In this document: positions 1,459 to 48,799 of the stretch, piece by piece
Position numbering within the stretch: the stretch's first letter is position 1
How the letters are laid out: every line of letters starts with the position of its first letter
NCBI GenBank assembly: GCA_030609365.1
Contig: JAUWCJ010000005.1
Coordinates: 1-53,394 of the forward strand
DNA from: Candidatus Eiseniibacteriota bacterium
GTDB taxonomy: Bacteria; Joyebacterota; Joyebacteria; Joyebacterales; Joyebacteraceae
Reading direction: 5' to 3'
Length of the DNA stretch: 53,394 nucleotides
Notes under the pieces: model-generated
What the model was told of the DNA's origin: nothing
Seen by the model: the letters and a program-made list of their open reading frames with translations, nothing else
Databases searched by the model: none
Program-made: the position numbers and the translations under genes

Positions 1459-4275
1459 CTACTTCAGCATGATCATCTTACGGGACTCCGAGAAGCCCGC
1501 GGCGTTGATGCGGTAGAAGTAGACGCCACTCGCGCATCTCTCTCCACCGTCGTTCGCGCCGTTCCAGACAACGAAGCCCTGGGCACCGGCGTCAACCTCG
1601 GTGTCCAGAAGCGTGCGGACGACCTTACCAGCGACGTTGTAGACCTCTATCGTCACCGGACCGGCTTCCTTCACGCTGTAGGCGATCTTCGTGACCGGGT
1701 TGAACGGGTTCGGATACGCGTGCGACAGCTCGTTCTTCCTGCCGTCCTCGACACCCGTACCAGGACCGGACGGAGTCTGACTGAAGTAGGCCATGATGTT
1801 GCCCATCATGTCGACTCTGTCCTCAATGCCGGCGTGGAAGTACCCTTCGGGCGTGTAGTTGCCAGCACCAGCGCCTACGATGCCGTCAGCGACGTACTCC
1901 AGACCGAACCCGAGGCTGACCGTATTGTAGCCCAGAGTCTGGTGTGTGTACGCGGTGCCTGCACCGAACGTCGAGCCAACCATGTCCTCGTACTGCAGAG
2001 CCGCCTCGGCGCCCGGGATGCCGGCGTCGGGGTCGATGACATCGTAGTAATGAAGCTGCGGACACGCACCTCGCAGAATAGCCTGGCCATCGTCATGGCT
2101 CATGAACGTTGCGCCACCAGGAACATCCTTGATACCAGGCACGCTGTCCACCGTCACGATACCGACCGCATTCGCGATGTAGTCGGATGCGAGCCAGACG
2201 TCGAAGAAGCTCAGGGTCTCGATGCCCGTCTGCATCAGCTCCTTGCTCCAGTCATTACCGGTGATAAGAAGGTTCCTGTCCTTCCCCCCTCCGGCCTGGT
2301 TCAGCCACGCGATCAGGTTGGCCTGATCCGGCTTCTTGATCGTGTAGGAGTCGAACTCGTTCGTGAACCAGATCTGCGTATCGTAGTACTTGTAGCCGGA
2401 GCTGTCCGGACCGTTGGACTGGTCCGTGCTGCCCGACGGAACCTCCACGTCGAACGTCTCCCACTCGTACCCGAGGATGCCGAGCATCTCGCGGTAGTAG
2501 TACTCCGAGGTGTGGCGGTAGTTGCGCTCCGCGCCAGGCGTCCGACGACCGTGCTTGTCAACCAGGAGCAGGCCCTGATCGCCGATGCTCGCGCTGATCG
2601 GAAGAATGGAGAACTCGATGTAGCCCTCCGGCGCGCTGCCGGGATAGGTCGCCGTGTTACCGACGCCGTCCTCCGCCTCGTAGTAGTAGTGGATCTCGGA
2701 GCCCACGACCATCTCAACACTGGGCGGCGGAACGGTCCAGTCGTTGCCGATCGGATCCTGGCGTCGGCAGACATAGCTGGTCTGGGTGAGGCCGTTGTCG
2801 GCGATCAGTGTCAGTGCGACGATATCGTCGTCGTCCTTGACGTTGATCACTGCCGAATCGGGCTGCCCGGCCGCCAGTTCGTTCGGGAATACGTCGAAGA
2901 ACCTGGTCCAGACGCTGTAGTTCCATGTGGTTCCCGCGTCACCCGAAGGGACACCGACCCTCTGGCGGTTGACGAAGATGCCGGCCATGTGCGGCTCCTC
3001 CGCTGGATCGTCATTCTGGAGCTCCCACCGGATCGCCAGCCAGGCGTTGCCGGCGAAGGCATCCCAGTCATCGGTCCAGACGCCCCAGAACGGACCACCA
3101 TACCACCAGCCGGGGCTCTCATCAGCAAAGCCGGCGGGGTCGGTCACGCACGCATACAGGTCGTTCGAAGCCAGCGACAGGTTGAAGATGTCGTTCGTCG
3201 GCCTCGGCAGATCGACCCACTGGTCCCACTGACCGACGAGCTTGGCTGCACCACTGACATCGATTGGCGGGCTGACGAGCCATGCATACTCACCGTCCAG
3301 CATCTGACTCGTGAACGGGTCGACCGCGGCATACATCCAGCTGCCGACGGGTCTGTCGTCGCACGTGAAGTCGCGTCCCGTAACGAAGTCGATGCCGAAC
3401 TGACCGCGCCAGAACGTCAAGCCTGTCTGGCCGGCAGCTGCGACGTCATCGTGCACCCAACCGTTGTCGCCGCCCTCGGCGTCATCGGTGAAGATTGGCA
3501 CGCCGTCGTCGTAAAGCGTGATGTTGTCCAGCTGCCACGCACCGTCGAGAACGGGGTGGCCGTTCGGGTTGTCGTACTCGTCCTGAGATGAGTACGCGCC
3601 GTCAGACTCGAACCGGAACCTCAGGTCGAAGTTCACACCCATGGCCTCGGTCGTGATGTCCAGAACCACGTGCCCGCCGCCAGCCGGATGCCCGCTGTTC
3701 CAGTCCTGAGAGATGCCGGGCGTACCCGCAAAACCGGGGTTGGTAACAGAGTTCACCGTGTACCACGTGTCGGCGGTCGCGGAGGAACGGATATCGACGT
3801 AACCGTAGTCGTAGTCCTTCTCCATCGCGAAACGCTGGTCGTACTCGAATGTCAGAGTTCCCGTGAGACCGTTGGCCTCCGTGAAGTTCCGCTCGAGAAT
3901 CTGCATCCAGTCGTTCGCGTAGCCCCGAGCCTGCCGCCAGCACTCATTGGACGTGCCACACCACCAGGTGCTGGCGCCCAGATGCGTGTAACCGTTGATG
4001 CGGATCGTGTCGTGATGCCAGTAGTTTACACTGGCGAGCGTTCCGCTGCGGTCCCACGCTGTCCATCCGGCGTTGTCTCCCACCTCATCTTCGAAGTTAG
4101 CATCGAAGATCCACAGGGTCTCCAGTCTCGTGCCCTCGAGCTGCGTGCCGCTGGGCGACATGCCGGGCGAAGGAACTCGGCTGACGAGATCCGTCCCGAT
4201 GCCAACAGCAAGGGCACCGGTGGTAAGCGCCAACACCGTCCCGATTGCCACAGCAATCAGAAATGTGTTCTTCAT
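1459..4275 (-). CDS. Large secreted multidomain protein with C-terminal sorting/FlgD-like domain
   Basis: 938 aa with signal peptide MKNTFLIAVAIGTVLALTTGALA and a GGGGGG-type ribosome site. The N-terminal half contains Trp/Gly/Asp-rich beta-sandwich-like segments typical of exported adhesin or MAM-like modules (LWIFDANFED, WQLDNITLYDDG). A middle segment around residues 590-800 (LLLVDKHGRRTPGAERN, YYREMLGILGYEWETFDV, NLLITGNDW) resembles a Rossmann-like domain found in other FCB secreted proteins. Residues about 855-938 form the sorting/FlgD-like tail beginning YPNPFNP and ending SRKMIMLK, implying secretion and surface anchoring through a type IX-like route (inference; no Por genes in the window). 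No protease active site is evident. It has its own promoter at 4572-4600 and an attenuator-like leader. Paralogous fragments lie on its downstream (left) side at 871-1047 and 1-309. Confidence 0.85.
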   Translation of the reverse strand: MKNTFLIAVAIGTVLALTTGALAVGIGTDLVSRVPSPGMSPSGTQLEGTRLETLWIFDANFEDEVGDNAGWTAWDRSGTLASVNYWHHDTIRINGYTHLGASTWWCGTSNECWRQARGYANDWMQILERNFTEANGLTGTLTFEYDQRFAMEKDYDYGYVDIRSSATADTWYTVNSVTNPGFAGTPGISQDWNSGHPAGGGHVVLDITTEAMGVNFDLRFRFESDGAYSSQDEYDNPNGHPVLDGAWQLDNITLYDDGVPIFTDDAEGGDNGWVHDDVAAAGQTGLTFWRGQFGIDFVTGRDFTCDDRPVGSWMYAAVDPFTSQMLDGEYAWLVSPPIDVSGAAKLVGQWDQWVDLPRPTNDIFNLSLASNDLYACVTDPAGFADESPGWWYGGPFWGVWTDDWDAFAGNAWLAIRWELQNDDPAEEPHMAGIFVNRQRVGVPSGDAGTTWNYSVWTRFFDVFPNELAAGQPDSAVINVKDDDDIVALTLIADNGLTQTSYVCRRQDPIGNDWTVPPPSVEMVVGSEIHYYYEAEDGVGNTATYPGSAPEGYIEFSILPISASIGDQGLLLVDKHGRRTPGAERNYRHTSEYYYREMLGILGYEWETFDVEVPSGSTDQSNGPDSSGYKYYDTQIWFTNEFDSYTIKKPDQANLIAWLNQAGGGKDRNLLITGNDWSKELMQTGIETLSFFDVWLASDYIANAVGIVTVDSVPGIKDVPGGATFMSHDDGQAILRGACPQLHYYDVIDPDAGIPGAEAALQYEDMVGSTFGAGTAYTHQTLGYNTVSLGFGLEYVADGIVGAGAGNYTPEGYFHAGIEDRVDMMGNIMAYFSQTPSGPGTGVEDGRKNELSHAYPNPFNPVTKIAYSVKEAGPVTIEVYNVAGKVVRTLLDTEVDAGAQGFVVWNGANDGGERCASGVYFYRINAAGFSESRKMIMLK

Positions 4276-4481
4276 TCGCTCAATCCCCCCTCATAACAGA
4301 AGGCAATTCTATCGAACTTCCACCGTCTGTGCTTTTCACTCCCCGACCACGCGCGAAGCGTGCAGGCGACCCCGCCGGCGCGCTGGCCGGAGTGATCGTT
4401 TTTGAGTGATCAGCTTTATCGAAGCAACACGCAATCCCAAGTGCAGTGAACATCATCGAATCAGCAACGCGCAAACGGTAC

Positions 4482-4528
4482 AAAAACACCCGTTCACAAG
4501 ATCTTCAATCTTGCACGGGCACGTGAAC
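4482..4528 (-). promoter_or_regulatory. Leader terminator/attenuator-like structure
   Basis: In the minus-strand leader, CCCGT...ACGGG (4519-4515 with 4493-4489) encloses CAAGAT...ATCTTG (513-508 with 502-497 of the 4000s) and is followed by TG and TTTTTGT: an intrinsic-terminator layout placed before the gene, about 45 nt after the predicted transcription start. Upstream GTTCAC (4528-4523) can alternatively pair with GTGAAC (4497-4492), which would break the CCCGT/ACGGG stem. The two exclusive foldings suggest attenuation. No ligand motif is recognised. Confidence 0.5.
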
Positions 4529-4571
4529 TGAAGGCCCGCCAGCACCTTCGCTATTTCCCGACTCGTTGAAG

Positions 4572-4600
4572 AGTATACCAATTGGCAGGTCCCGTGTCAA
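4572..4600 (-). promoter_or_regulatory. Near-perfect sigma70-like promoter
   Basis: Minus strand: TTGACA at 4600-4595, a 17-bp spacer, TATACT at 4577-4572. This is 6/6 and 5/6 to consensus. It drives the secreted protein starting at 4275 with a leader of about 290 nt. Confidence 0.8.
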
Positions 4601-4631
4601 CGTCTATCACGGGGAGAGAGAAGTGCCCCTG

Positions 4632-7061
4632 CTAAGGGCCATTCGGTGACTCCAGGTCTCTCAGGAGCGCTTCCAGCGCCGCAACGCGCGCTCCGCCGAG
4701 AGCCAGATGGCGACGGTAGTGGAATGCTCCGAGATTCGGATTTCCACCATAGAAATAGTGTGTGAGAGCGAGATTTAGGTGCGCCGGTGCAAAGTCGGGA
4801 TGGATTCTGAGCTCGGCGTCGTACTCAAGAAGAGCTTCGTCGTGGCGGCCGGCCTCGTTCAGGAAGACTCCGTACATGTAGTGACCGCCGTCAAGAACCG
4901 GCTCAAGACGTAACGCCTCCGCCATGAGTTCCAACGCCTCTTCCAGGAGACCCATGTCGCGCTTGAGGAGCGCCTCCCGCCTGAAAGGCTCTCCCGAATA
5001 GGGAGCGAGCCGCGCCGCCTCCTCAAGAATATCGACGGCTTCGACGACGCGCCCGGCCTTCGCGAGCGTATCAGCCCGCGCGAAGGCAGTGATCACGTCA
5101 GGCGGGATCTCGCGGATCGGCGAGCCTGCCAGAAGCCCCAGATAGAACTCGATCTCGGCCCTCTCCTCGCCTGCCGTGTCCCATTTCAGAGCCTCTCTGA
5201 GCCATTCCCCCGCTTCATCCGAGCTCTCGCTCCTGTACAGGATGATCCCGCGCTCCTTAAGAGCGGTCGCGTTCCTTCCGTCTTCCACCAGGACCGTATC
5301 CACATGCGCCAGAGCGCGGTCGTAGTCCCCGGACCGTTCGAGCAGCATGGCAAGATTGATTCGCGCGGACGCATAGCCAGGATCCAGCCTGAGTGCCTTC
5401 CTGAACGCCGCCATCGCCTCATCCGTGCGTCCGGCTTCCGTCAGCACGGCACCCAGATTCAGGTAGTTCTTGGGATAGTCAGGATCCAGTCTGATTGCCG
5501 TCTCGTACTCGGCGACGGCCTCCTCCGTCATGCCGCGCTCGGCGTAGATGATCCCCAACCTGAAGTGCGGCTGCGCGTACCCGGACTCACGGTCGACATC
5601 GTAGTGGTTCGCATTGACGACGTAGAGGAGAACCCCGAGCACAACGAGCGGCACGGCGAGTGAGACGAACTCGCGCGCCCGAGCTCGGCGGGCGATCTCC
5701 ACCACGGCATAGGAAGCCAGCACGGCCAGGACGGGCACGACCGGCAGTCTGTACCTAGCCACCACGAAGAACCCCACGATAGACAGCAGATACACCGAGC
5801 AGTACAAGGCCAGCAGCCTGGGTCGCCTGCGGCGGAAGGTAAGGGCCAGCCCCACCAGTCCAAGAGGAGCGATGATGGCAAACCCCGGGAGAGGCAGCGC
5901 CAGGAGCGCCGAGTACCGCTTCTGGAAGTAGTAGTTCTCCAGCTGCGGCAGCTCGTAGGAACTCATGACGAACGCGAGCTTCCGGACCATAAGCTTCGCC
6001 CACTCTCCGGGGCGCGCCTTGATATCCGCCCAGCCGCGGTCGTACCAGTACCCAGAGACCTCCGATGGCTCAAGCTCGCGTCCGAGCGCGCGCTCGGCGA
6101 TCGCACTTCCGTCGGGGTCACTGACGATATCCAGCCCCTCCGGTCTCACGTAGCCGCCGGTCGCGCTCTCACTGTTGCCGATGAAGAAGTTCAGGCCACC
6201 GTTCGAGGTGATCAGGATGAAATCCCGCTCCACAACGTAGTTCCGGAGTGTCACCGGACCGACGACGAGAGCTATGCCGAGGACGACCAGCGCCGCCCTG
6301 CGAAGCGCCACGGAGCGCGCGGCCGACGGCACGTCGCCGCGGGGGCGCGCGCGTTCGGAGAGCCCTATCCAGAGGACGGCCGCGGCCGCAGGCAGAAGCG
6401 CGGCGGCCCTTCCGATGGTCGCGAGACCCAGGACGGCACCGGCGGCCAGGTAGTGAACGGGCTTCCCGGACGCGTCCGCCCGCAGTATCAGGTACAGGGC
6501 GAGAACGTTCAGGAAGACGAGAAGTGGTGTGAGCAGCACGGAACAGTCGTAGAAGATCAGCGCGCCGTAGCTGGCGGTGAGCAGGCCGGCGAGCAGGCCG
6601 ACTCTTCTGTTGAAGACGTCGCGTCCAAGGAGGTAGACGAGCGACGCGGTCGCGGCCCCGAGACCCGCCTGGATCATACGCACCAGGAAGAGGTCCCTGC
6701 CGAACAGCCTGTACACGGCCGCGAGGAAATACGAGTAGAGCGGGGTCATGAAGAACGCGCCTCGCTCGGCGGTTCCTCCGGCAATATCCCTCGCCCATTG
6801 GTCGTAGAACTTCGCATCCAGGCCCAGCGTCTGGAAGAAGGGTGTGTATCTCACCTGGAAGGTGTAGACGACCCTGAGAAGGAAGGCGACGGCGAATATC
6901 ACCGCCGGCCAGAACCACGGTCTGTCCGTCAGACCGCGTATACCCTTCCGGACCTCAGGCACGTTTGCTCCCGTGCCGGCCGGCCCGGATGCGCCGACGG
7001 CACGCGAACTTCCTCGTGTGCGCTGCGGGCGGCGGTTGGATTTCCTAGGCTTTCGAGTCAT
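4632..7061 (-). CDS. Membrane GT-C/ArnT-PMT-like glycosyltransferase with C-terminal TPRs
   Basis: 809 aa. A basic N-terminal 50 residues is followed by about a dozen hydrophobic segments up to residue ~480. After TM1 the extracytoplasmic loop carries LGLDAKFYDQW, the acidic-plus-Tyr pattern of GT-C (PMT/ArnT, glycosyltransferase 39-like) enzymes that transfer sugars from polyprenyl-phosphate donors. From residue ~492 there are TPR repeats (HFRLGIIYAERGMTEEAVAEY, NYLNLGAVLTEAGRTDEAM, ARINLAMLLERSGDYDRAL) continuing to the C-terminus. An ATG start with AGGA 8 nt upstream is accepted. It is the last gene of the row, 56 nt after the last phosphatase-like gene, so it probably acts with those enzymes on an envelope glycan or protein (inference). 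Donor and acceptor are unknown. Confidence 0.85.
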   Translation of the reverse strand: MTRKPRKSNRRPQRTRGSSRAVGASGPAGTGANVPEVRKGIRGLTDRPWFWPAVIFAVAFLLRVVYTFQVRYTPFFQTLGLDAKFYDQWARDIAGGTAERGAFFMTPLYSYFLAAVYRLFGRDLFLVRMIQAGLGAATASLVYLLGRDVFNRRVGLLAGLLTASYGALIFYDCSVLLTPLLVFLNVLALYLILRADASGKPVHYLAAGAVLGLATIGRAAALLPAAAAVLWIGLSERARPRGDVPSAARSVALRRAALVVLGIALVVGPVTLRNYVVERDFILITSNGGLNFFIGNSESATGGYVRPEGLDIVSDPDGSAIAERALGRELEPSEVSGYWYDRGWADIKARPGEWAKLMVRKLAFVMSSYELPQLENYYFQKRYSALLALPLPGFAIIAPLGLVGLALTFRRRRPRLLALYCSVYLLSIVGFFVVARYRLPVVPVLAVLASYAVVEIARRARAREFVSLAVPLVVLGVLLYVVNANHYDVDRESGYAQPHFRLGIIYAERGMTEEAVAEYETAIRLDPDYPKNYLNLGAVLTEAGRTDEAMAAFRKALRLDPGYASARINLAMLLERSGDYDRALAHVDTVLVEDGRNATALKERGIILYRSESSDEAGEWLREALKWDTAGEERAEIEFYLGLLAGSPIREIPPDVITAFARADTLAKAGRVVEAVDILEEAARLAPYSGEPFRREALLKRDMGLLEEALELMAEALRLEPVLDGGHYMYGVFLNEAGRHDEALLEYDAELRIHPDFAPAHLNLALTHYFYGGNPNLGAFHYRRHLALGGARVAALEALLRDLESPNGP

Positions 7062-7117
7062 GCACTGAGTCCTGGGAGCTTGTGGAATAACCGCGTGCGG
7101 CCCGGCTCGGGTGCGGG

Positions 7118-8473
7118 CTAGTCGATGTACCCGAGCGACCTGAGCATCTCCTTGATCTCCTCATCGACGGGTGACTCGATGGGAGTGAGATCTCCGTCAG
7201 GCCCATCCCCCACCTCGTAGGTGTCTATGTAGACGACCGGGTACCTCTCGAGGAAGGTGCTGCTCATGACCTCCGTCAGGGGTCTGCCATCCATGTCCCT
7301 GGCCACCGGCAGGCCGGCCAGTGCAAGCACCGTCGGAGTAACGTCGAGAACGCTCGCGCCGGCTATGCTCCCGCCGCGCTTGATGCCCGGACCGCTGACG
7401 AAGATGATCCCGTCCTCTCTGTGCATCTCGATGCCGACCGCTACGTCGCCCTCGAAGCCGCGGTAGCCCCTGTGGCCGGCGAACCCGTGGTCCGAGAGAA
7501 GAACCACGTACGTGTCGTCGCCGACCAGCTTGACCACCTCACCGAGAAGCGAATCCGCGAGCGCGTAGTAGCGCTCAACCACGGGAGAGAACGTCTCGAT
7601 GGCCTCCGCGGACAGCTCCTTCTTCCACGACTCCGGCTCCATGAATCGCCAGAAAAAGTGACTGGTTATGTCGCTGCCCCTGAAATAGACGGCACTGAAA
7701 TCCGCGGGTCTGGTCTCGAAGAAGTGCCGCGCGAGAGTCAGCGACGTCATGTCGGCCGCGTAGAACTTCGCCAGACTGGAGGTCCTGACCTTTTCCTCCT
7801 GCCTGGCACGATCCACCGATGTGTCGATGAACGATTCGATGATGGAGTCACCGACGTCCTCTTCATGGTAGACGTTGTCCGCGACCTCCGACCAGAGACT
7901 CCTTGGGTAGATGCCCTCGCTGAGCCAGTCGTCGGTTTGGTTCGGCGCCCGTGCCTCACGTTTCGCCGACAGAGCGAGTGTGACGTGTGACGAGATCAGA
8001 TATCCGTTCACGACGTCGGCAGGATATGTCACGAGCCAACCGATGACGGCAACGCAGCGCTCCGCGGCGGACAGGATCTGCCAGATGGCCTTGACCTTGC
8101 GCATGTTGCTGGTGGTCGGCGAGGCATCGGCCGGATCGGGCATATTCACAACGAACCCGCTGATGCCGTGCTTCTCCTCGGTCTTGCCCGTGGCGATACA
8201 GGTCCAGATCGTGGGCGACACGAACGGTCTTATCGAGTGAAGGATACCCGATGATCCCTCGCTTCTCATGCGCGCCACGTTCGGCATGCGCCCCTCGTCA
8301 GCGAGCCGGTTGACTCGGGACCAGTCGAGGCCGTCTATCCCGACGATCAGGATCCTGGAGGGGGCCGCAGGGATCGGAACGTCGTCAGCCGGAGCGGGCC
8401 TTCGCACGTAGAACACGACGGCCACGGCGACGACACCCAGGACAACTGCCAGTATCGCGATGGTTCTTCGCAC
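7118..8473 (-). CDS. Alkaline-phosphatase-superfamily phosphodiesterase/hydrolase, paralogue 5
   Basis: 451 aa, type I phosphodiesterase/nucleotide pyrophosphatase-like. The GTG at 8473 is preferred over upstream GTGs because GGAGG lies 9 nt before it and the product then begins directly with a membrane anchor (VRRTIAILAVVLGVVAVAVV), placing the catalytic domain outside the membrane. Metal and nucleophile motifs are complete: GIDGLDW, SPTIWTCIATG followed by KHGI, RGSDITSHFFW, LSDHGFAG, MHREDG. The C-terminus ends in ESPVDEEIKEMLRSLGYID, shared with two other paralogues. It is 41 nt behind the pseudoenzyme paralogue. The substrate is unknown; families of this type cleave phosphodiesters, sulfate or phosphonate esters or transfer phospho-groups. 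Confidence 0.88.
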   Translation of the reverse strand: MRRTIAILAVVLGVVAVAVVFYVRRPAPADDVPIPAAPSRILIVGIDGLDWSRVNRLADEGRMPNVARMRSEGSSGILHSIRPFVSPTIWTCIATGKTEEKHGISGFVVNMPDPADASPTTSNMRKVKAIWQILSAAERCVAVIGWLVTYPADVVNGYLISSHVTLALSAKREARAPNQTDDWLSEGIYPRSLWSEVADNVYHEEDVGDSIIESFIDTSVDRARQEEKVRTSSLAKFYAADMTSLTLARHFFETRPADFSAVYFRGSDITSHFFWRFMEPESWKKELSAEAIETFSPVVERYYALADSLLGEVVKLVGDDTYVVLLSDHGFAGHRGYRGFEGDVAVGIEMHREDGIIFVSGPGIKRGGSIAGASVLDVTPTVLALAGLPVARDMDGRPLTEVMSSTFLERYPVVYIDTYEVGDGPDGDLTPIESPVDEEIKEMLRSLGYID

Positions 8474-39905: not shown

Positions 39906-41195
39906 CTAGTAGTACAAGCTGATCTGCACGAGGCCGCTCGTCGGGGTCCCGCCGTATTCGCTCAAGATCATCAAGTCCTCAGGAGGCGCACCGTACGAGA
40001 CGTAGCCGCTGGCCGTGAGGGTCACGTTGTCGGAGAAGACCCACACGACGGACGGGACGACGACCCCGGACCCGTCGACCGGGCTCACCAGCCAGGTCGC
40101 GGACAGCGGCACGACACCCGCGAACCCGTAGGATACCTGGACGGCACAGGCGTGGCGTCCGAGCACCTGACTGTCCCCTCGTTCGTATCGCTCGAGGAAG
40201 GCCGAGTCATAGAAGTAGTCGGACACTTCCTCGATATCAGGGAACCCGAACCCGGAGTAGTGGTACTCGGCTACGAGCATGAGCCCGCCGGCGAGATCGA
40301 ACGTGCGCGAGCCCCCGACGACCGTCTTGACCGCCACGTCGTCGCTGCCGAAGGAGCCCCCCGCGGGCAGAGGCTCGGGAGACAGGAAGACGGCGGCCTC
40401 TCCGTGGAACTCCGCGTCGAGCAGCGAAAACGACAACGAGGCGCCGTAGAATCCGTCCTCGCACCGCGAGCCCGCGAAGAGCTCGCCATCCACGTCCCCG
40501 ACGTAGCCGTGTACGCGCCCGACGAAGGCCGACTCTTCCATCGACTCGCCGAAGGCCGCCACGGCGTCCACGGATATCAGGTCGGTCACGGGCACTCTAA
40601 GGCGGACCGCGTCGATCCCCCTCCGCCATTCCCTGTCACTCTCAAGAGGAGAGAACGGCGCAAATATGTCGACGGCCCCGAACACCAATCCCCTGCCCCA
40701 GCCCACGGCCTGCCTGCCGACCGTCACCTCGGCCCGCGAGAGCGAGAGTGAGGCCGCCGCTCTGTCCAGCTCGTGGCGATATGAGAACGTCGAGCCCACT
40801 TCGACCAGCGAATCGTCCAGCTGTCGAACGCGGTAGGGAGCGGGAAACTGGGCAGGGAGCACACCCAGATCTCCGGCCACACCGGCCCCCTCCGACACGG
40901 TCCTCGCTCTCTGCTCGTAGGCGGCCTGCGCTACGAGCCACGTGGTCAGCCTTGCATCCGCAACGGCGCGGAACCGCCACAGCGAAGTGGCGCTCCATTC
41001 CTCTGGGAAGAAGATCGTGTTGTCGGACGCATGCGACAGGGCCGACGTCCACTTGAGCGATGTGTTGAGAGACACGGAACGCTCCCCGGATGTGTCGGAC
41101 CAGAACTCGGCCGCGTCCGTGGGGAGCGCACACGTGAGCAGACACATGCAGACGAGGAAGACCGCCGGCACGCACCGCACCTTCTCACCTCGCAT
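39906..41195 (-). CDS. Outer-membrane beta-barrel protein of the ABC envelope operon
   Basis: 429 aa from an ATG at 41195, giving signal peptide MRGEKVRCVPAVFLVCMCLL ending near TDAAEF. The rest alternates polar and hydrophobic residues in short strands (RHELDRAAASLSLSRAEVTV, NVTLTASGYVSYG) and ends with Tyr (LVQISLYY), as outer-membrane barrels usually do. It contains RQAVGWGRGLVFGAVDIFAP, a pattern common to DUF1302/alginate-export-like barrels. It follows the ATPase gene by 24 nt and is the last gene of the operon, so it probably supplies the outer-membrane step or receives the cargo. The start could also be a GTG at 41219; neither has an excellent ribosome site. Confidence 0.72.
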   Translation of the reverse strand: MRGEKVRCVPAVFLVCMCLLTCALPTDAAEFWSDTSGERSVSLNTSLKWTSALSHASDNTIFFPEEWSATSLWRFRAVADARLTTWLVAQAAYEQRARTVSEGAGVAGDLGVLPAQFPAPYRVRQLDDSLVEVGSTFSYRHELDRAAASLSLSRAEVTVGRQAVGWGRGLVFGAVDIFAPFSPLESDREWRRGIDAVRLRVPVTDLISVDAVAAFGESMEESAFVGRVHGYVGDVDGELFAGSRCEDGFYGASLSFSLLDAEFHGEAAVFLSPEPLPAGGSFGSDDVAVKTVVGGSRTFDLAGGLMLVAEYHYSGFGFPDIEEVSDYFYDSAFLERYERGDSQVLGRHACAVQVSYGFAGVVPLSATWLVSPVDGSGVVVPSVVWVFSDNVTLTASGYVSYGAPPEDLMILSEYGGTPTSGLVQISLYY

Positions 41196-41219
41196 GTGAT
41201 GCCGCGTCTCGATGCCCAC

Positions 41220-41990
41220 CTAGTTCACCTCCGTCCCATCGCCGGGCGGCTCCGTTCCCTTACGCCGCACCTCCACGCCTTCACCTGGCGCCTCCTCACC
41301 GGAGTTCTTCCTGATGTCGCTGACGATCTTCCCGTCGCGGATCGTTACGACCCTGGACGCGTACGCGACCACCAGCGGATCGTGCGTGGAGAATACGAAC
41401 GTCATGTCGTGCTCGTCTCTCAACTGCCTCATCATCTTAAGGAGCGATTCGCCGTTCTCGCTGTCGAGGTTCGCGGTGGGCTCGTCGGCCAGAACCAGAC
41501 GGGGCTTCGCCGCTACCGCCCTCGCGACCGCGACTCTCTGCTGCTGTCCGCCCGACATCTCGTTCGGCCTCCTGTCGGCAAGCTCGCCCAAGCCAAGGTC
41601 CTCGAGCACGGACATTGCCGTGGCGCGCCGCCCGCCGTCCTCACCCCGGAGCTCCAGCACAAACTCGACGTTCTCGAGCGCCGTGAGCACCGGGACCAGG
41701 TTGTACGCCTGAAACACGAACCCGAGCGACCGAAGTCGCAACTCCGCGCGTTCCCTGCGGCTCATGCCCGAAAGGTCCTGCCCGAACACCTCCACCTTCC
41801 CACCCGTCGCCGTGTCGAGCGCACCTATCAGATTCAGGAGCGTCGTCTTGCCGCTGCCGCTCGGACCCACTATCGCCAAGAAGTCTCCCTTGTGGATATC
41901 GAGATCGAGCCCTCGCAGAGCGTTGACGGTGATCTTCCCAACATGGAAGTCTTTCGTCACTGCACTCGCGCCAACAAGAACGTCTTGCAT
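41220..41990 (-). CDS. LolD/MacB-type ABC transporter ATPase
   Basis: 256 aa. Walker A GPSGSGKTT (residues ~42-50), Q-loop FQAYNLVPVLTALENVEF, signature MSGGQQQRVAVARAV, Walker B LVLADEPTANLDS and H-loop STHDP. The family energises lipoprotein release or mechanotransmission systems with FtsX-like permeases. The ATG directly follows the permease stop (TAGATG). The last ~35 residues are a charged hydrophilic tail. Confidence 0.94.
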   Translation of the reverse strand: MQDVLVGASAVTKDFHVGKITVNALRGLDLDIHKGDFLAIVGPSGSGKTTLLNLIGALDTATGGKVEVFGQDLSGMSRRERAELRLRSLGFVFQAYNLVPVLTALENVEFVLELRGEDGGRRATAMSVLEDLGLGELADRRPNEMSGGQQQRVAVARAVAAKPRLVLADEPTANLDSENGESLLKMMRQLRDEHDMTFVFSTHDPLVVAYASRVVTIRDGKIVSDIRKNSGEEAPGEGVEVRRKGTEPPGDGTEVN

Positions 41991-43232
41991 CTATGCCTCC
42001 CTCAAACTCAGAGCGGACGTGGGGTCGGTCCGCAGCGCGAACACCGCCGGATAGATGGCCGCAATCAGGGTCGAAACGAACGCGATGATGAACGCGTAGG
42101 GCAACACCCAGAGCCCTGGAACCGAGTACATAATCGGGTCGAAGAGCACGCCGGACATCGCGAGGTCCCCTCCCATCATCGTGCTGAAATCGATGCCTTT
42201 CGTGGCGGTCTGGTGCAGGGGAAACCACACAAACAGCAGCCCGACCCCGGCGCCCATGACGGCCATCACCACCGCCTCGAGCAGTATCAAGCGCACCACC
42301 TGAGATGCCTTCATGCCCAGAGCGATCAGCACCGCGAACTCCCGCCTGCGCTCGAGTACCGCGGTCAGCTGCGCGCCCGCGATCCCGAGGATCACGACGA
42401 CCAGGACCGTACCTGCCAGGATGTTCATGAACCCCTTGTCGCTCTTGTAGTCGCCGCCCTGGGCGGGCACCACGACCATCCACGTCAGAACGTCGTCTTC
42501 CGGGGACACCACTGCTCGAAGACGTGAGACGGCGGTGTCCATCCGGAGGGGATCGTCGAGCGTGATGCTGATGTCCCCCGCACCCGCTCGCCCCGTGAGC
42601 CGCTCGACGTCCTCCAGCATCACGTGACATATCGACGCGTCCATGTCGCGACTGCCGGTCTCGATGATGCCGACGATGCGGAGCATCGCGTACTCCATCT
42701 CTCCGCCCTTGCTCACCACCGTCAGAAGAAGGTCGTCATCAAGTTCCACTTCCAGCCTGTCCGTGACAGTCCGGCCCACGACGGCGACGTCTCTGTCACC
42801 GTCTTTCAGGTATCTTCCCTCGACGACCGCCCTCACCAGCCGGCTCGTCTCGGCTTCTGCGACCGGGTCGACTCCGAGCACCTCAACACCCGCCACGCGG
42901 GTCCCGAACCCGAGAAGCGCGGTCGAGCGAGCGTGGGGCGCCGCCGCCTTCACGCCTCGGGTGGCCCTCACCACGGCGAGTTCCGCCTCCCAATCCACAA
43001 GGCGGAGGTCGTTGTCCCGGCTCCGCTCCCACTCCGCCGGCACGACCTTCACGTGACCGAAGCCGGATTCGGCGATCGCGCGCACACGCATCTGCGTACT
43101 GCCTCGCATGAACGCCGTCATGAAGACCGCTATCGCAACTCCGATACCAATACCGACGACGGACAAGAGCGTTCTTCGTACGTTTCTGCCCAGCGTTCGG
43201 ACGGCGAATTTCGCAATGATCGGAGTACTCAT
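41991..43232 (-). CDS. FtsX/MacB-type ABC permease (second)
   Basis: 413 aa from the ATG at 43232, which overlaps the upstream permease stop as ATGA. N-terminal TM (RRTLLSVVGIGIGVAIAVFM), a large periplasmic MacB-like domain (~45-270), then three TM helices of the FtsX domain (MNILAGTVLVVVILGIAGAQ, VVMAVMGAGVGLLFVWFPL, LPYAFIIAFVSTLIAAIYPA) with RRREFAVLIALGMKASQVVRL, the coupling-helix region. It ends LRTDPTSALSLREA as in LolC/E-like proteins. It has the same length as its partner, suggesting a heterodimer. Confidence 0.92.
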   Translation of the reverse strand: MSTPIIAKFAVRTLGRNVRRTLLSVVGIGIGVAIAVFMTAFMRGSTQMRVRAIAESGFGHVKVVPAEWERSRDNDLRLVDWEAELAVVRATRGVKAAAPHARSTALLGFGTRVAGVEVLGVDPVAEAETSRLVRAVVEGRYLKDGDRDVAVVGRTVTDRLEVELDDDLLLTVVSKGGEMEYAMLRIVGIIETGSRDMDASICHVMLEDVERLTGRAGAGDISITLDDPLRMDTAVSRLRAVVSPEDDVLTWMVVVPAQGGDYKSDKGFMNILAGTVLVVVILGIAGAQLTAVLERRREFAVLIALGMKASQVVRLILLEAVVMAVMGAGVGLLFVWFPLHQTATKGIDFSTMMGGDLAMSGVLFDPIMYSVPGLWVLPYAFIIAFVSTLIAAIYPAVFALRTDPTSALSLREA

Positions 43233-44470
43233 AGCCGCATCGCCTCCATGGGCTCCATCCGCGCGATGCGCATGATCGGCCACACAACCGACAGGAGCGC
43301 GGTCAGGAACACCGCGATCATCCCCGCCAGGACGTCGCTCGCGTACAGCCTGGGGTACACGAGCGACGACAGATGAAGGCCCTTGTAGCTCGCCTCGTAC
43401 GAGTCGGACGCGCCACCGAGTGCGGCGTAGTCGAGCCCCGTCTGCTGTGTGATGAGCAGGAGGCCTAAGCCCAATGCCGTCCCGATGACCACTCCAACGA
43501 GGCCCAGAATGACGGCTTCAACGGTTATCATTCTCGCGAGCCTGCTGGGTCCACACCCGAGCGAAAGCAACATCCCGAACTCGTGCTTCCTCTCGAACGT
43601 CGCCATGAGCATCGTGTTGGCAATGCCGGCGGCGGCCGCCACGAATACGATCCCGAGGACCACAAGCAGCATGACGTCTACCATCTCGAACATCCCCACC
43701 ATCTCCGGCACGATCTCACGCCACGTCAGGACCTCCAGGTCAACCAGCGCCGGCACTGCGGAGAGCCGCGCCACGGTCTCGCCCACGGTATCGAGATCCC
43801 GCGTGTGGATCACCATCTCGTGCGCCTGGTCGTACATCGCGAGAAGCTCGCCCGCGTCGTCGAGCGTCATCACTATCCCGAGATTGTTCACTATGTCCAC
43901 CGGAGAGGAAATGACCTGCGTCACCGTGAAGAGCCCGCTGGCGATGGACCCGTCGACGTCCTGCCCGACCAGGGCGAGCTCGGCACCCGGTTCGATGTCG
44001 TACCTGCGTGCGAAACCGCTGCCTGCCAGCACGCGGCCCTCCCCCATGAGCGACGCAGCATCGAGCCCCGGTAGAAGACCGTCGTCGTGCGATTCGGAGG
44101 CGGGGTCGACGCCCACCACGAAGCTCATGAATCCCTCTTCCGTGAGCGCCGTGAGGACGGGAGCGTAGATGCGCGCCGACACATGTTCGACGGAGGGATC
44201 CGCGCGAACCGCATCGAGCGCGGACGTAACATTGTCTATGGTGATATCGATGGAGCGGTCGTCCAGCCACACCGGCGCGTGTACCTGGGCGTGTCCAATC
44301 ATCGGGCCTGTAATGGACCCGTGAAACTCGTCCATGTAGCCATGCATCAGCGCGGCGACGGCCAGGAAGATGAACTGACCGAGCGCGATCGCGGCAAGGG
44401 CAAGGACCGACCTTTTCCTGTTTCGACCCAGGTTCCGCCAAGCGATGCGGAGCGTGCTCGTGCCGGTCAT
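43229..44470 (-). CDS. FtsX/MacB-type ABC permease (first)
   Basis: 413 aa. First TM helix after RIAWRNLGRNRKRSVLALAA, periplasmic domain with YAPVLTALTEEGFMSFVVGV and DIVNNLGIVMTLDDAGELL, then FtsX domain with FERKHEFGMLLSLGCGPSRL and a final TM near VLAGMIAVFLTALLSVVWPI. Ends MRIARMEPMEAMRL. It starts 53 nt behind the LolA-like carrier gene. In LolCDE systems the heterodimer extracts lipoproteins from the inner membrane; here substrate is unknown. Confidence 0.92.
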   Translation of the reverse strand: MTGTSTLRIAWRNLGRNRKRSVLALAAIALGQFIFLAVAALMHGYMDEFHGSITGPMIGHAQVHAPVWLDDRSIDITIDNVTSALDAVRADPSVEHVSARIYAPVLTALTEEGFMSFVVGVDPASESHDDGLLPGLDAASLMGEGRVLAGSGFARRYDIEPGAELALVGQDVDGSIASGLFTVTQVISSPVDIVNNLGIVMTLDDAGELLAMYDQAHEMVIHTRDLDTVGETVARLSAVPALVDLEVLTWREIVPEMVGMFEMVDVMLLVVLGIVFVAAAAGIANTMLMATFERKHEFGMLLSLGCGPSRLARMITVEAVILGLVGVVIGTALGLGLLLITQQTGLDYAALGGASDSYEASYKGLHLSSLVYPRLYASDVLAGMIAVFLTALLSVVWPIMRIARMEPMEAMRL

Positions 44471-44523
44471 GTGGCGATTACCTCTTGGTGTGCGAAATCG
44501 CCCCGGGTGACAACCCAGGGCCC

Positions 44524-45420
44524 CTAGTGTGTCCGCTCGAGACGAGAGAGACTGAACATGTCGTCGGACAGCTCGACGTCGAACTCTACGTCAAGGTAGC
44601 GGAACTCGGTCCTTCGACCTTCCTCTCGCTCGGGCACAATGGAGATGAGCGTCGGTATGCGCCTACCACCCAGCACCTTCACGTCCTCGAACCGCATTGT
44701 TCGCGACAGGCGGTCCTTCCTGTCAAAGAACTGCGCCATGACGGGAAGCCAGTCGTCGTACGCGAACACCATCTCGACGCTGTTCCAGAGCCCCACCGCG
44801 TCCGGACGCGCGTTCATGCGCACCTTCCACCCCGGCGGGTCCTCCGAGCGCCCGACCACTTCCGACTCGTAGTCGTCCTCGTACGAGGAATCACGGACGA
44901 TATCGTCGTTCGTGAGATCACTGCCCATCCACGAACCCATCATCATAGACGGTGGAACACGGATGGTTCGCGAGATCTTCGGGAGATAGTTCCATAGGTT
45001 CTTGTCGACCTTGAGCGTCGCCGTTCCGGCGTCGCGAGGTGGCGCGTCGATGACGATGAGCGCCTTGTCTTCGCCCTTGCCCCAGAGCCTAAGCCGGAGG
45101 GTCCTTGTCTTCTTGGGTGTGACTATGGAGATCTCGACCCGGGCGATGGTTCCCGTCGAGTCGTAGAGGTCGTCGTAGCTCCGGAGGAGGAGATCAACAT
45201 CCGGCGCGTCTGTGATTGGCGCGTCGACATCGGGCGCGTCGGCATCGGGCGCGTCGGCATCCGGCGTCCTAGCATCAGTCGTCGGATGAATCGCCGTGGC
45301 GACCTGCCTGTCCACATCTTCGCGCGCGGCAGCCCCGACAGCGCAGAGCGCCAGCGCAACCGCAACACCCAATGTGACATAGGGCGCTCGCGTGCGACGT
45401 TTCCCCTTCAGTCTGATCAT
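44524..45420 (-). CDS. LolA-like outer-membrane lipoprotein-sorting protein
   Basis: 298 aa from the ATG at 45420, which overlaps the regulator's stop as ATGA; a longer upstream frame is the regulator read in another frame and is rejected. Signal peptide APYVTLGVAVALALCAVGAAA. A linker rich in Asp, Ala and Pro repeats (residues ~45-75) precedes the carrier domain, which has DAPPRDAGTATLKVDKNLWNY, PKISRTIRVPPSMMMGSWMG, YDDWLPVMAQFFDRKDRLSR and EFRYLDVEFDVELSDDMFSL. This fits the PF17131-type LolA-like periplasmic carriers. It would shuttle lipid or lipoprotein between the ABC transporter and the outer membrane. Confidence 0.85.
   Translation of the reverse strand: MIRLKGKRRTRAPYVTLGVAVALALCAVGAAAREDVDRQVATAIHPTTDARTPDADAPDADAPDVDAPITDAPDVDLLLRSYDDLYDSTGTIARVEISIVTPKKTRTLRLRLWGKGEDKALIVIDAPPRDAGTATLKVDKNLWNYLPKISRTIRVPPSMMMGSWMGSDLTNDDIVRDSSYEDDYESEVVGRSEDPPGWKVRMNARPDAVGLWNSVEMVFAYDDWLPVMAQFFDRKDRLSRTMRFEDVKVLGGRRIPTLISIVPEREEGRRTEFRYLDVEFDVELSDDMFSLSRLERTH
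45198..45266 (-). repeat. Degenerate 15-nt tandem repeat in the LolA-like gene
   Basis: GC-rich units with GGCGCGTCGGCATCG-like sequence on the plus strand encode the acidic DADAP/DVDAP linker between signal peptide and carrier domain. At least four units are visible with substitutions. Confidence 0.75.
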
Positions 45421-45902
45421 CTCTCGCGTTCCTCTTTCCAGTCCCTCTCCCAACGTGCGATGAACCCGGGCAGCTCCCTCTCGATGAAGGTGCAGTAGCT
45501 CCCCAACTCTCTCAACCGGAGTGTGCTGTCTTCCTTCTCCCCGGCGCTGAGCTCGAGACCCTCTTCCACCAGGTCGCGCATGGAGACGATGTACGACATC
45601 CGCTTCCTGAGGAGCTGACCCCACACGCCGGACCTCACGCGGAAGTGAGCGCTGCGCTCGCCGGGGATCCCCAGGCGCTCGACCATCCCGGACTGTGTGA
45701 GAGCTCGTGTGGTCGTACTCACCGACCCCGCGCTTGCCCCCACCGCCTGCGCGATATCGCCAGCCGACTGCTCCGGCGGATCGGAGATGAGCAGCCAGGC
45801 AAGGATCCTGCCCATCATGCGCGTGGCCCCAAGCAGCTCGAAGAGCATCCCCCACCGCTCGAGGTAGCCCTGGAGATCTCCGCGTGTCGTGTCGCCGTTC
45901 AT
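45417..45902 (-). CDS. GbsR/MarR-family winged-helix regulator
   Basis: 161 aa from the ATG at 45902, with GGAGGG 5 nt upstream. A longer frame from a TTG at 45959 is rejected because that TTG is the first triplet of the -35 element. The wHTH core is MMGRILAWLLISDPPEQSAG, DIAQAVGASAGSVSTTTRAL, SGMVERLGIPGERSAHFRVR, as in GbsR-like repressors; the C-terminal helices (SMRDLVEEGLELSAGE) likely form the dimer. It heads the operon of carrier, permeases, ATPase and barrel and overlaps the carrier gene, so it probably regulates this operon, perhaps by autoregulation. Confidence 0.88.
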   Translation of the reverse strand: MNGDTTRGDLQGYLERWGMLFELLGATRMMGRILAWLLISDPPEQSAGDIAQAVGASAGSVSTTTRALTQSGMVERLGIPGERSAHFRVRSGVWGQLLRKRMSYIVSMRDLVEEGLELSAGEKEDSTLRLRELGSYCTFIERELPGFIARWERDWKEERER

Positions 45903-45930
45903 GCTTCCCTCCGTTGACATCACAATGGAC

Positions 45931-45959
45931 ATTCTAACTGGTTCACTTGATGTTGTCAA
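45931..45959 (-). promoter_or_regulatory. Near-consensus promoter of the envelope ABC operon
   Basis: Minus strand: TTGACA at 45959-45954, a 17-bp spacer, TAGAAT at 45936-45931 (6/6 and 5/6). Predicted transcription starts near 45924, about 22 nt before the regulator ATG at 45902. A strong promoter next to a repressor gene fits autoregulation; no clear operator palindrome is seen. Confidence 0.75.
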
Positions 45960-46066
45960 TTCAAAACCTTCAATAAATACTGAAATATGGAAAAGAGCCC
46001 AGCCACGCGCGCTTTGCCCCGCGTGAGCGCAGGGTCACTCCTGTGGCGGTGCCGATGGACCTCCTG

Positions 46067-46180: not shown

Positions 46181-46795
46181 GTGAAGACGACGAACTCCAG
46201 TGGACGGGTCCCCACAGGAACACTCACGGGAACCGCCCTCCTGCTCGCGCTCGGGGTCGTACTGCCCATCGTCTTTCACGCGTTTCCCCTGGGAGGACGG
46301 ATCTTCCTGCCGATGCATCTGCCGACCTTCGTGGCGGGGCTCGTCCTCGGGCCGGTGGCGGGGCTCGTCGTGGGCGCCGGGTCCCCAATCGTGTCGGGAC
46401 TGCTCACGGGACGTCCCACGGTCTTCTATATGATACCCATGGTCTTCGAGCTGGCAACGTACGGCCTAGTGGCGGGCCTTCTGCGCCCGCGGTTTGCGGC
46501 GCTGCTCGGGCGGCGTGCCCGCGCAAGCGGTCCCGGCAAGACCGGTCACGCTGAGCGGCCGGTCCCGGCGGCATCTCCGCTGGCGGCCGTCTCACTGGCC
46601 CTTGTCTGCTCGATGCTCGCCGGCAGGGTCGTCTGGATAGCGGCCGTCGTCTGGCTGGCCCCGGTCATCGGGCTGACGGCCCGCACGATCGCGATGGCGC
46701 TGGGCGCAATCGGCGCTGGGTGGATCGGCATGGCCATCCAACTCGCTCTCATTCCCGCGATCGTCCGGGCGATTGAGCGCACCAGAAAGACGTGA
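46181..46795 (+). CDS. ECF transporter S component
   Basis: 204 aa starting at GTG, with AGGAAGGA upstream. Five to six hydrophobic helices: GTALLLALGVVLPIVFHAFP, LPMHLPTFVAGLVLGPVAGL, MIPMVFELATYGLVAGLL and others, matching the S (substrate-binding) component of energy-coupling-factor vitamin transporters (FMLPMHLP-type loop and GLLTGRPTVFYMIP). Substrate, probably a vitamin, cannot be told. No A, A' or T component is in the window, so it likely shares a common ECF module. It begins the only plus-strand gene run. Confidence 0.82.
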   Translation: MKTTNSSGRVPTGTLTGTALLLALGVVLPIVFHAFPLGGRIFLPMHLPTFVAGLVLGPVAGLVVGAGSPIVSGLLTGRPTVFYMIPMVFELATYGLVAGLLRPRFAALLGRRARASGPGKTGHAERPVPAASPLAAVSLALVCSMLAGRVVWIAAVVWLAPVIGLTARTIAMALGAIGAGWIGMAIQLALIPAIVRAIERTRKT

Positions 46796-46801: not shown

Positions 46802-46912
46802 GACTGGACTCCACGGGAGTTGAATTGAACGCGGGCTCATAACATGGGGCCGGTAATCCACAGACCAGGCAGTCCACGGCTGCCGGAAACGAACTCAAGG
46901 ACAGCGACGCGC

Positions 46913-48799
46913 ATGCGAATACTGCTGATACACGCGAGCAAGTTCAGCTACCACGTCACCGAGAAGACCTCGGCGGTCTCCTCTCTGGCGGAGCTGAGCG
47001 AAGAGCACCTCAAGGGATCGACGGGCGACACGCTGGTGGCGTTCCTCGCTTCCGAGAAGACGGACGAGAAGGGCATCGACTCGGTCGCGGAACAGGCGGC
47101 CACGGTCATCACCGACCAGGCGAAGCAGGTCAAGACGGCCGACGTCATGCTCTACCCCTACGCTCATCTCTCCAGCAACCTGTCGTCTCCGCGTGTCGCG
47201 ACGAAGGTGCTGACCGCGATCGGCAAGAGGATGCGCGAGGACTCGGGGCTCACCATCCACGAGGCGCCCTTCGGCTACTACAAGGGCTTCGAGATCGAGT
47301 GCAAGGGCCACCCTCTGTCAGAGCTCGCCAAGACGATCATGCCGGGGGGCGAGACCGGTGACGGTGCCCGCGCCGCCGGCGAAGATGACACCTCCGCGGC
47401 GCTCCAGGCCGAGAAGACCATGAAGTCCGACTGGCGCGTGTTCTACCCGGACGGGAAGGAACTGCCGGCGCACGAGTGCAGCTTCGACGGCCACGATTGT
47501 TTCAAGCAGATGTACGACTACGAGATATCGGGCACGCGCACCTCGAGCGAGCCGCCGGCTCACATCGAGCTCATGAGGAGGCTCGAGCTCGTGGACTACG
47601 AGCCCGCGTCCGATCCGGGCAACTTCCGATGGTACCCCAACGGTGCCCTCATCAAACTGCTGGCCGAGGAGCACGTGTCCTCGCTTCTGAACGCCGCCGG
47701 AGCCATGCAGGTCGAGACTCCGATAATGTACGACTACCAGCACCCGAATCTGATGAGTTACCTCAACCGCTTCCCAGCCCGTCAGTACGTGCTTCTGTCC
47801 GACACGAAGGAGTACTTCCTGCGATTCGCCGCGTGCTTCGGGCAGTACCTGATGCAGCACGACATGCAGATCTCGCACAGGATGCTCCCCGTACGACTGT
47901 TCGAGATCAGCCACTACTCCTTCCGCCGCGAGCAGTCCGGCGAATTGGCGGGGCTGCGCCGTCTGCGCACGTTCACCATGCCCGACCTGCACACGTTGAC
48001 TAAGGACACCGCCTCGGCCCGGGAGGAGTTCCTGAGCCAGATGGATGTCTCGATGCAGTGCATGAGCGACTTCGGTCTGGACTACGAGGTAGCGGTCCGC
48101 TTCGTCCGCGGCTTCCTGGACGAGGACCCGGAGTTCGCGCGTGAGATCGCGCGCCGGGCGGGCCGTCCGGTTCTGGTGGAAACCTGGGAAGAGCGCTTCT
48201 TCTACTTCGTCGCCAAACTCGAGTTCAATTTCCTGGACGCTCAGGAGAAGTCATCGTGTCTCTCGACCGTCCAGATCGACGTGGAGAACACGGAACGGTT
48301 CGAGATCGACTACGTCGACGAAGACGGGACGAAGAAGCATCCGATCCTGATGCACACCTCTGTCTCCGGATCTATTGAGAGAGTCATCTGTTCGATACTC
48401 GAGCAGCAGGCGATTCGCATACGGAACAAGGAAGTGCCCAACTTCCCGCTGTGGCTGGCGCCGACCCAGGTTCGCGTCATCCCGGTGTCCGACAAGCACC
48501 ACGAGTTCTGCGAATCACTCCTCGAGAAGATTCCGTTCCGCGTCGACTTCGACGACAGGGACATGAGCGTAGGGAAGAAGATCCGTGAGTCAGGACGACA
48601 CTGGGTCCCCTACACGATCGTCATCGGAGACCGCGAGGTCGGTGGCGACGAGCTGGCCGTGCGCATCCACGGGGGCGAACAGCGGCAGTTCTCGATCGAC
48701 CAGCTCAACGAGACCATCAGGCAGGAACTCGTCGACAGACCCTACCGGCCCCTCAACGTGCCGGCCCGTCTGTCAGAGCGTCCTATCTTCGTCGGCTGA
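46913..48799 (+). CDS. thrS: Threonyl-tRNA synthetase, archaeal type
   Basis: 628 aa from ATG at 46913, where the archaeal signature MRILLIHASKFSYHVTEKTS begins; upstream extension is rejected. Residues 1-~140 form the archaeal ThrRS editing domain (D-aminoacyl-tRNA deacylase-like: DTLVAFLASEKTDEKGIDSV, MLYPYAHLSSNLSSP, IHEAPFGYYKGFEIECKGHP) in place of the bacterial TGS and HxxxH editing domains. The class II core has the zinc ligands in RFAACFGQY, MPDLHTL and LMHTSVSGSIERVI, followed by an anticodon domain. It charges tRNA-Thr. Presence in a bacterium implies transfer from archaea or a lineage trait; no second thrS is in the window. Confidence 0.93.
   Translation: MRILLIHASKFSYHVTEKTSAVSSLAELSEEHLKGSTGDTLVAFLASEKTDEKGIDSVAEQAATVITDQAKQVKTADVMLYPYAHLSSNLSSPRVATKVLTAIGKRMREDSGLTIHEAPFGYYKGFEIECKGHPLSELAKTIMPGGETGDGARAAGEDDTSAALQAEKTMKSDWRVFYPDGKELPAHECSFDGHDCFKQMYDYEISGTRTSSEPPAHIELMRRLELVDYEPASDPGNFRWYPNGALIKLLAEEHVSSLLNAAGAMQVETPIMYDYQHPNLMSYLNRFPARQYVLLSDTKEYFLRFAACFGQYLMQHDMQISHRMLPVRLFEISHYSFRREQSGELAGLRRLRTFTMPDLHTLTKDTASAREEFLSQMDVSMQCMSDFGLDYEVAVRFVRGFLDEDPEFAREIARRAGRPVLVETWEERFFYFVAKLEFNFLDAQEKSSCLSTVQIDVENTERFEIDYVDEDGTKKHPILMHTSVSGSIERVICSILEQQAIRIRNKEVPNFPLWLAPTQVRVIPVSDKHHEFCESLLEKIPFRVDFDDRDMSVGKKIRESGRHWVPYTIVIGDREVGGDELAVRIHGGEQRQFSIDQLNETIRQELVDRPYRPLNVPARLSERPIFVG

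Follow-up and report, generated by a model that had tools for sequence, protein, structure and literature searches.

Operon layout and control region

The window, that is, the whole stretch of 53,394 nucleotides analysed from a Candidatus Eiseniibacteriota bacterium, carries on its minus strand (39906-45902) a real six-gene unit. Its products are, in order, a regulator resembling MarR/GbsR, a LolA-like carrier, a pair of FtsX permeases, an ABC ATPase and a predicted barrel. From regulator to barrel, the junctions are a 4-nt overlap, a gap of 53 bp, a further 4-nt overlap, 0 and 0. An earlier note on this DNA had listed six overlapping or near-touching genes in this order, which is borne out, all being on the minus strand with overlaps or gaps of at most 53 bp; its description of the operon was retained with regard to gene order and the barrel as a prediction, while gene starts needed correction. 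The operon is flanked by hypF, an ECF transporter component and threonyl-tRNA synthetase, which look unrelated to an export module. The ECF gene (46181-46795, plus strand), divergent from the operon, encodes a substrate-specific component with a weak folate-family likeness. The threonyl-tRNA synthetase (46844-48799, plus strand) harbours an archaea-type editing domain (PF08915, E 1e-43), here in a bacterial genome.

The regulator (45417-45902, minus strand) is a winged-helix protein of 161 aa matching MarR_2 with an E-value of 7e-6, slightly below the gathering score. Its start is probably the ATG at 45902, preceded by GGAGGG, rather than the TTG at 45959, the start taken in the earlier note. 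With this TTG the -35 box TTGACA begins, and positions 45931-45959 (minus strand) are therefore read as the core promoter, a sigma-70-type TTGACA-17-TAGAAT with 11 of 12 matches and a spacing of 17, the -35 box of which is conserved in relatives. This interval had been named as the one on which to test binding of the regulator. The promoter does lie there, but the operator is probably the palindrome TTCAGTA-NN-TANTGAA located immediately upstream (45969-45984), 9 bp from the -35 box. The genome has a single copy of the palindrome, and three relatives (G004, G011 and G015) have it at one place each; in all four cases it lies directly upstream of the gene for this regulator, and a search of 20 family genomes returned no match beyond the sites upstream of the regulator. 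Such a single site fits a dedicated operator to which the MarR/GbsR-like regulator would bind.

The module proteins and their conservation

The carrier (44524-45420, minus strand; 298 aa) starts at 45420, where its gene overlaps that of the regulator by 4 nt. It is predicted to be periplasmic, with a signal peptide devoid of a lipobox, followed by an Asp/Pro/Ala-rich linker and a LolA_like domain (PF17131, E 5e-43), and contains a nearly invariant PPSMMxGSWMGSDxTNDDxV motif. Homologues with solved structures include 4z48, 3buu, 9tp6 and 3bk5. The linker, at about residues 45-75, consists of low-complexity Asp, Pro and Ala repeats, and is shorter in a close relative (L040).

Permeases A (43229-44470) and B (41991-43232), both on the minus strand, match MacB_PCD and FtsX. 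The two 413-aa permeases of the earlier note are recovered when permease B is started at the ATG at 43232, which produces the 4-nt overlap with permease A; a GTG start would give 430 aa, and the shorter form is favoured by relatives. The AlphaFold2 model of permease A (pLDDT 88.3) has LolE in LolCDE as its nearest fold (TM 0.75), and LolF and LolE are the best solved relatives of the module permeases, including permease B. Both lack the Hook, in the window and in aligned relatives. In a comparison of the permease A model with periplasmic domains of LolC, intact LolC matched no better than 6f49, a construct lacking the Hook. The ATPase (41220-41990, minus strand; 256 aa) is of the LolD/MacB type (ABC_tran, E 4e-33).

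The last gene (39906-41219, minus strand) codes for a protein of 437 aa, counted from a GTG, with a signal peptide and a C-terminal YY. Its reading as an outer-membrane beta-barrel holds as a prediction because the AlphaFold2 model, built from 51 sequences, is a confident beta-barrel (pLDDT 88.6, pTM 0.84) whose nearest solved folds are porins. Sixteen columns are invariant among the 51 relatives. The protein has no Pfam or NCBIfam match, and its profile found no relative among PDB sequences. With regard to the DUF1302 family (PF06980), weak matches were seen in 3 of the 51 sequences and none for the window barrel.

For the conservation analysis, species genomes were searched with the carrier alone and the best 80 loci taken, so that the resulting figures describe close carrier relatives. 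Carrier, two FtsX permeases, ATPase and barrel were found on one strand in 64 of these loci, and L053 proved complete on inspection (65/80). Fourteen others run off their contig, leaving L093 as the one true exception; the complete five-gene set is thus present in 65 of the 66 assessable carrier-selected loci. The module occurs, inter alia, in Eisenbacteria, Planctomycetes, Poribacteria, Zixibacteria, Elusimicrobia and, among Pseudomonadota, Colwellia, where a comparison of the barrel with plasmids gave no match. Once near-duplicates had been removed, 39 complete loci remained, with median gaps of 12, 6, 10 and -4 nt. Between the distance matrices of the module's five proteins, r is 0.86-0.95, a co-variation reached in none of 999 permutations. 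Chance neighbourhood is ruled out by the full sets across many phyla together with this co-variation, and the gene order is far beyond chance. The barrel is co-conserved with carrier, FtsX pair and ATPase across phyla.

A further sample comprised 386 genomes. Of its 54 strong carrier matches, defined by at least 200 bits, 39 had a barrel no more than 8 kb away and on the same strand. Module order is reversed in L196 and L225, with the set retained, and in G082 the module is split between two loci, carrier and permeases at one and ATPase and barrel at the other (L194/L195). L219 has a single permease and a convergent barrel, and L215, L216 and L218 are modules without a neighbouring barrel. Conversely, L193 (G009, 5323-6396) is a barrel alone, without a carrier or ABC genes around it, and the G009 genome as a whole gave no carrier match. 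This solitary barrel adjoins an apparent AcrB-type RND operon. At L199 (G059, 3732-7441), both permeases measure about 615 aa instead of the usual 410, and no module-type ATPase lies beside them.

The regulator is less constant. Its homologues precede the module in Eisenbacteria, Planctomycetes, Nitrospirae and Zixibacteria, MarR/GbsR-like proteins being found in the Eisenbacteria-type clade; in other clades, the gene upstream of the module codes for a TetR protein or for no recognised regulator, and in Colwellia a ParB gene lies directly upstream of the operon. The regulator is a clade-specific add-on outside the module core, and the view that it is integral to the set had to be abandoned.

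Comparison with Lol, RND and other envelope systems

Like LolCDE-LolA-LolB, the module combines a type VII ABC extractor having FtsX subunits with a carrier of the LolA fold, and its permease fold is nearest to LolE. It resembles Lol in extraction and carriage, yet departs from it in three tested LolCDE features. The permeases lack the Hook and score far below the family cut-off of LolCE (TIGR02212; 90 and 103 bits, cut-off 362), the carrier belongs to PF17131 and not to PF03548, the set includes a barrel, and LolB was found nowhere in the genome. The ATPase likewise remains under the LolD cut-off (TIGR02211; 215 bits against 307.75), but this is a weak test, since the housekeeping LolD, with 273 bits, falls below it too. 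A separate housekeeping LolCE (TIGR02212, 381 bits), which shows a Hook-like TPMGLMP where the module permeases have no insertion, is encoded with this LolD next to lysS. The module is therefore not the only LolCDE of the genome and, the barrel being conserved with it across phyla, the description of a self-contained trans-envelope module distinct from housekeeping Lol stands, the finding that was to overturn it being a sole LolCDE with an unconserved barrel and regulator. The suggested substitution of LolB by the barrel is unsupported, since a genome in which no LolB was found gives no basis for it.

A closer model than Lol with an exchanged receiver, as first suggested, is provided by the RND-LolA-like-DUF1302 pathways. 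These also comprise an inner-membrane pump, a soluble LolA-fold carrier and an outer-membrane barrel, and their carriers, like that of the module, are of the PF17131/DUF1329 type. The genome of the window itself contains MMPL/RND clusters with LolA_like carriers, one of which (C10) also has a DUF1302-type barrel, while another (C140) runs off its contig; in the relative G007, MMPL, DUF1302 barrel and LolA_like genes are clustered. When the module barrel profile was aligned with the C10 barrel, hhalign returned a probability of 97.2% (E 3.5e-11), and the same profile finds RND-type barrels in several genomes with weaker E-values. Judged from these profiles, the module barrel appears remotely homologous to the DUF1302-type barrels that accompany LolA-like carriers and RND pumps, and for this reason the module looks like the ABC-driven counterpart of these pathways. 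It differs from them in its pump, an ABC FtsX pair with an ATPase in place of a proton-driven RND/MMPL protein, and in its barrel, a separate sequence clade without a Pfam family. In the barrel tree, ABC and RND barrels separate at 97/96, which, with just two RND rows on long branches, documents separation and not the direction of an exchange.

Several RND-type systems of this kind have been linked to hydrophobic compounds. The Ame system of Castellaniella (AmeA/AmeB), tied to monoterpenes, was described as efflux (PMC6394551), and PP_0765/PP_0766 of Pseudomonas putida, with PP_2018/PP_2019, was tied to Tween 20, carrier-barrel and carrier-pump contacts being predicted for PP_0765/PP_0766 (PMC10866462). 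In Thalassolituus, the MMPL-LolA protein TOL_3187 and the porin TOL_3188 were tied to a C28 alkane (PMC6304351). The general idea of such a module is already in print: in Borrelia, BBJ23-BBJ29 encode together a LolA-like carrier, a MacB/LolE-like ABC transporter and a beta-barrel, as the module does, and non-polar ligand export was proposed (PMC13078400). That spirochaete set differs by its Omp85-family barrel, single homodimeric permease and TPR proteins (PMC13078400). Our literature search, with thin coverage of subscription journals and preprints, found no description of the ABC-LolA-like-barrel version. The FtsX/MacB_PCD permease fold is also shared with MacAB-TolC, but in the module ATPase and permease are separate genes and the carrier is soluble; a MacAB-type pump is ruled out, the operon containing neither an HlyD-type adaptor nor TolC. 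Another ABC set of the genome, on C80, includes an HlyD protein.

Proposed function and its alternatives

We consider it somewhat probable that the module serves the dedicated, regulated export of a hydrophobic, lipid-like molecule across the envelope. In the scheme that we infer, which extends to physical contacts, transport direction, cargo and regulator binding, the ATPase would assemble with the pair of LolE-like FtsX permeases into an ABC extractor of type VII (mechanotransmission), lifting an amphiphile from the outer leaflet of the inner membrane. The soluble PF17131 carrier would take it into its LolA-type pocket without a LolC Hook, cross the periplasm and dock on the DUF1302-related barrel, which would hand the molecule on, either to the outer membrane or to the cell surface. 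The regulator would control the operon through the single dedicated palindrome beside the promoter; export under stress, as envisaged in the earlier note, is unsupported. A lipid or small hydrophobe is proposed as cargo because of the RND kinship, the porin-like barrel and the ligand-type regulators; the Eisenbacteria loci offer no hint of cargo, their flanking genes looking unrelated. Also counting against this reading are the remoteness of the link between barrel and DUF1302, the likeness of the permeases to a lipoprotein extractor, the few modules with no barrel beside them and the solitary barrel of G009.

The alternative that deserves most attention, although we hold it to be rather unlikely, is dedicated lipoprotein export, in which ABC complex and carrier would move a few lipoproteins and the barrel would place them in the outer membrane or pass them across it to the surface. 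The LolE-like permease fold and the solved relatives LolF and LolE speak for it, LolE belonging to a lipoprotein extractor, as do the LolA type of the carrier and the proposal for Borrelia, in which a LolCDE/LolA-like set is joined by a barrel (PMC13078400). To these can be added the loci of one Poribacteria lineage with an inserted lipobox-bearing FG-GAP protein and a small outer-membrane-like protein, which point to a lipoprotein cargo there. However, a crude lipobox was detected in just 5 of 157 genes adjoining modules, which gives no general cargo signal, the Hook is missing from the permeases, the barrel resembles porins and DUF1302 barrels and not LptD or Omp85, and the related RND systems have been linked to small hydrophobic compounds. 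The Poribacteria pair, made of proteins of about 188 aa (outer-membrane-like) and about 540 aa (FG-GAP lipoprotein), is conserved in L071, L073, L093, L099, L111 and L112, inserted between carrier and first permease; in L093, it follows the carrier and the ABC genes are absent.

If the module were simply another Lol pathway of the usual kind, taking lipoproteins to the outer membrane and with its barrel merely co-transcribed, the FtsX pair, the ATPase and the LolA-like carrier, all of which are there, would be accounted for. This is nevertheless very improbable in view of the co-conserved barrel, which in many phyla has stayed in the set even where the operon was reversed, split or rebuilt, and it is further opposed by the low LolCE scores of the permeases and by the housekeeping LolCE already present. 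Similarly slight, or slighter, is the likelihood that the operon serves resistance to hydrophobic toxins or drugs, or their efflux, with induction by way of a MarR/TetR-type regulator: ligand-type regulators of varying family do precede some modules and the RND relative Ame was described as monoterpene efflux (PMC6394551), but no resistance gene lies nearby, nothing points to a drug, and the module is found mostly in uncultured environmental lineages.

Export of a lipid-like molecule thus remains the reading that we retain, and a wider proposal, to which we give not quite an even chance, follows the same lines. The module may represent a widespread class of outer-membrane delivery systems that run on an ABC pump. 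In these, lipid would be moved to the surface by a LolE-like extractor devoid of the Hook, together with a PF17131 carrier and a barrel from an unnamed family; carrier and barrel would share their ancestry with those of RND systems, the pump having been exchanged in evolution. In many bacterial phyla, how lipids and other hydrophobes pass across the periplasm to the surface is unsettled, and a compact five-gene module encoding every step, present in many uncultured phyla and in cultured Colwellia, offers a testable pathway. It would connect the ABC and RND pump families with a single route of delivery by carrier and barrel, and supplies a set of partners for a barrel family that lies outside Pfam.
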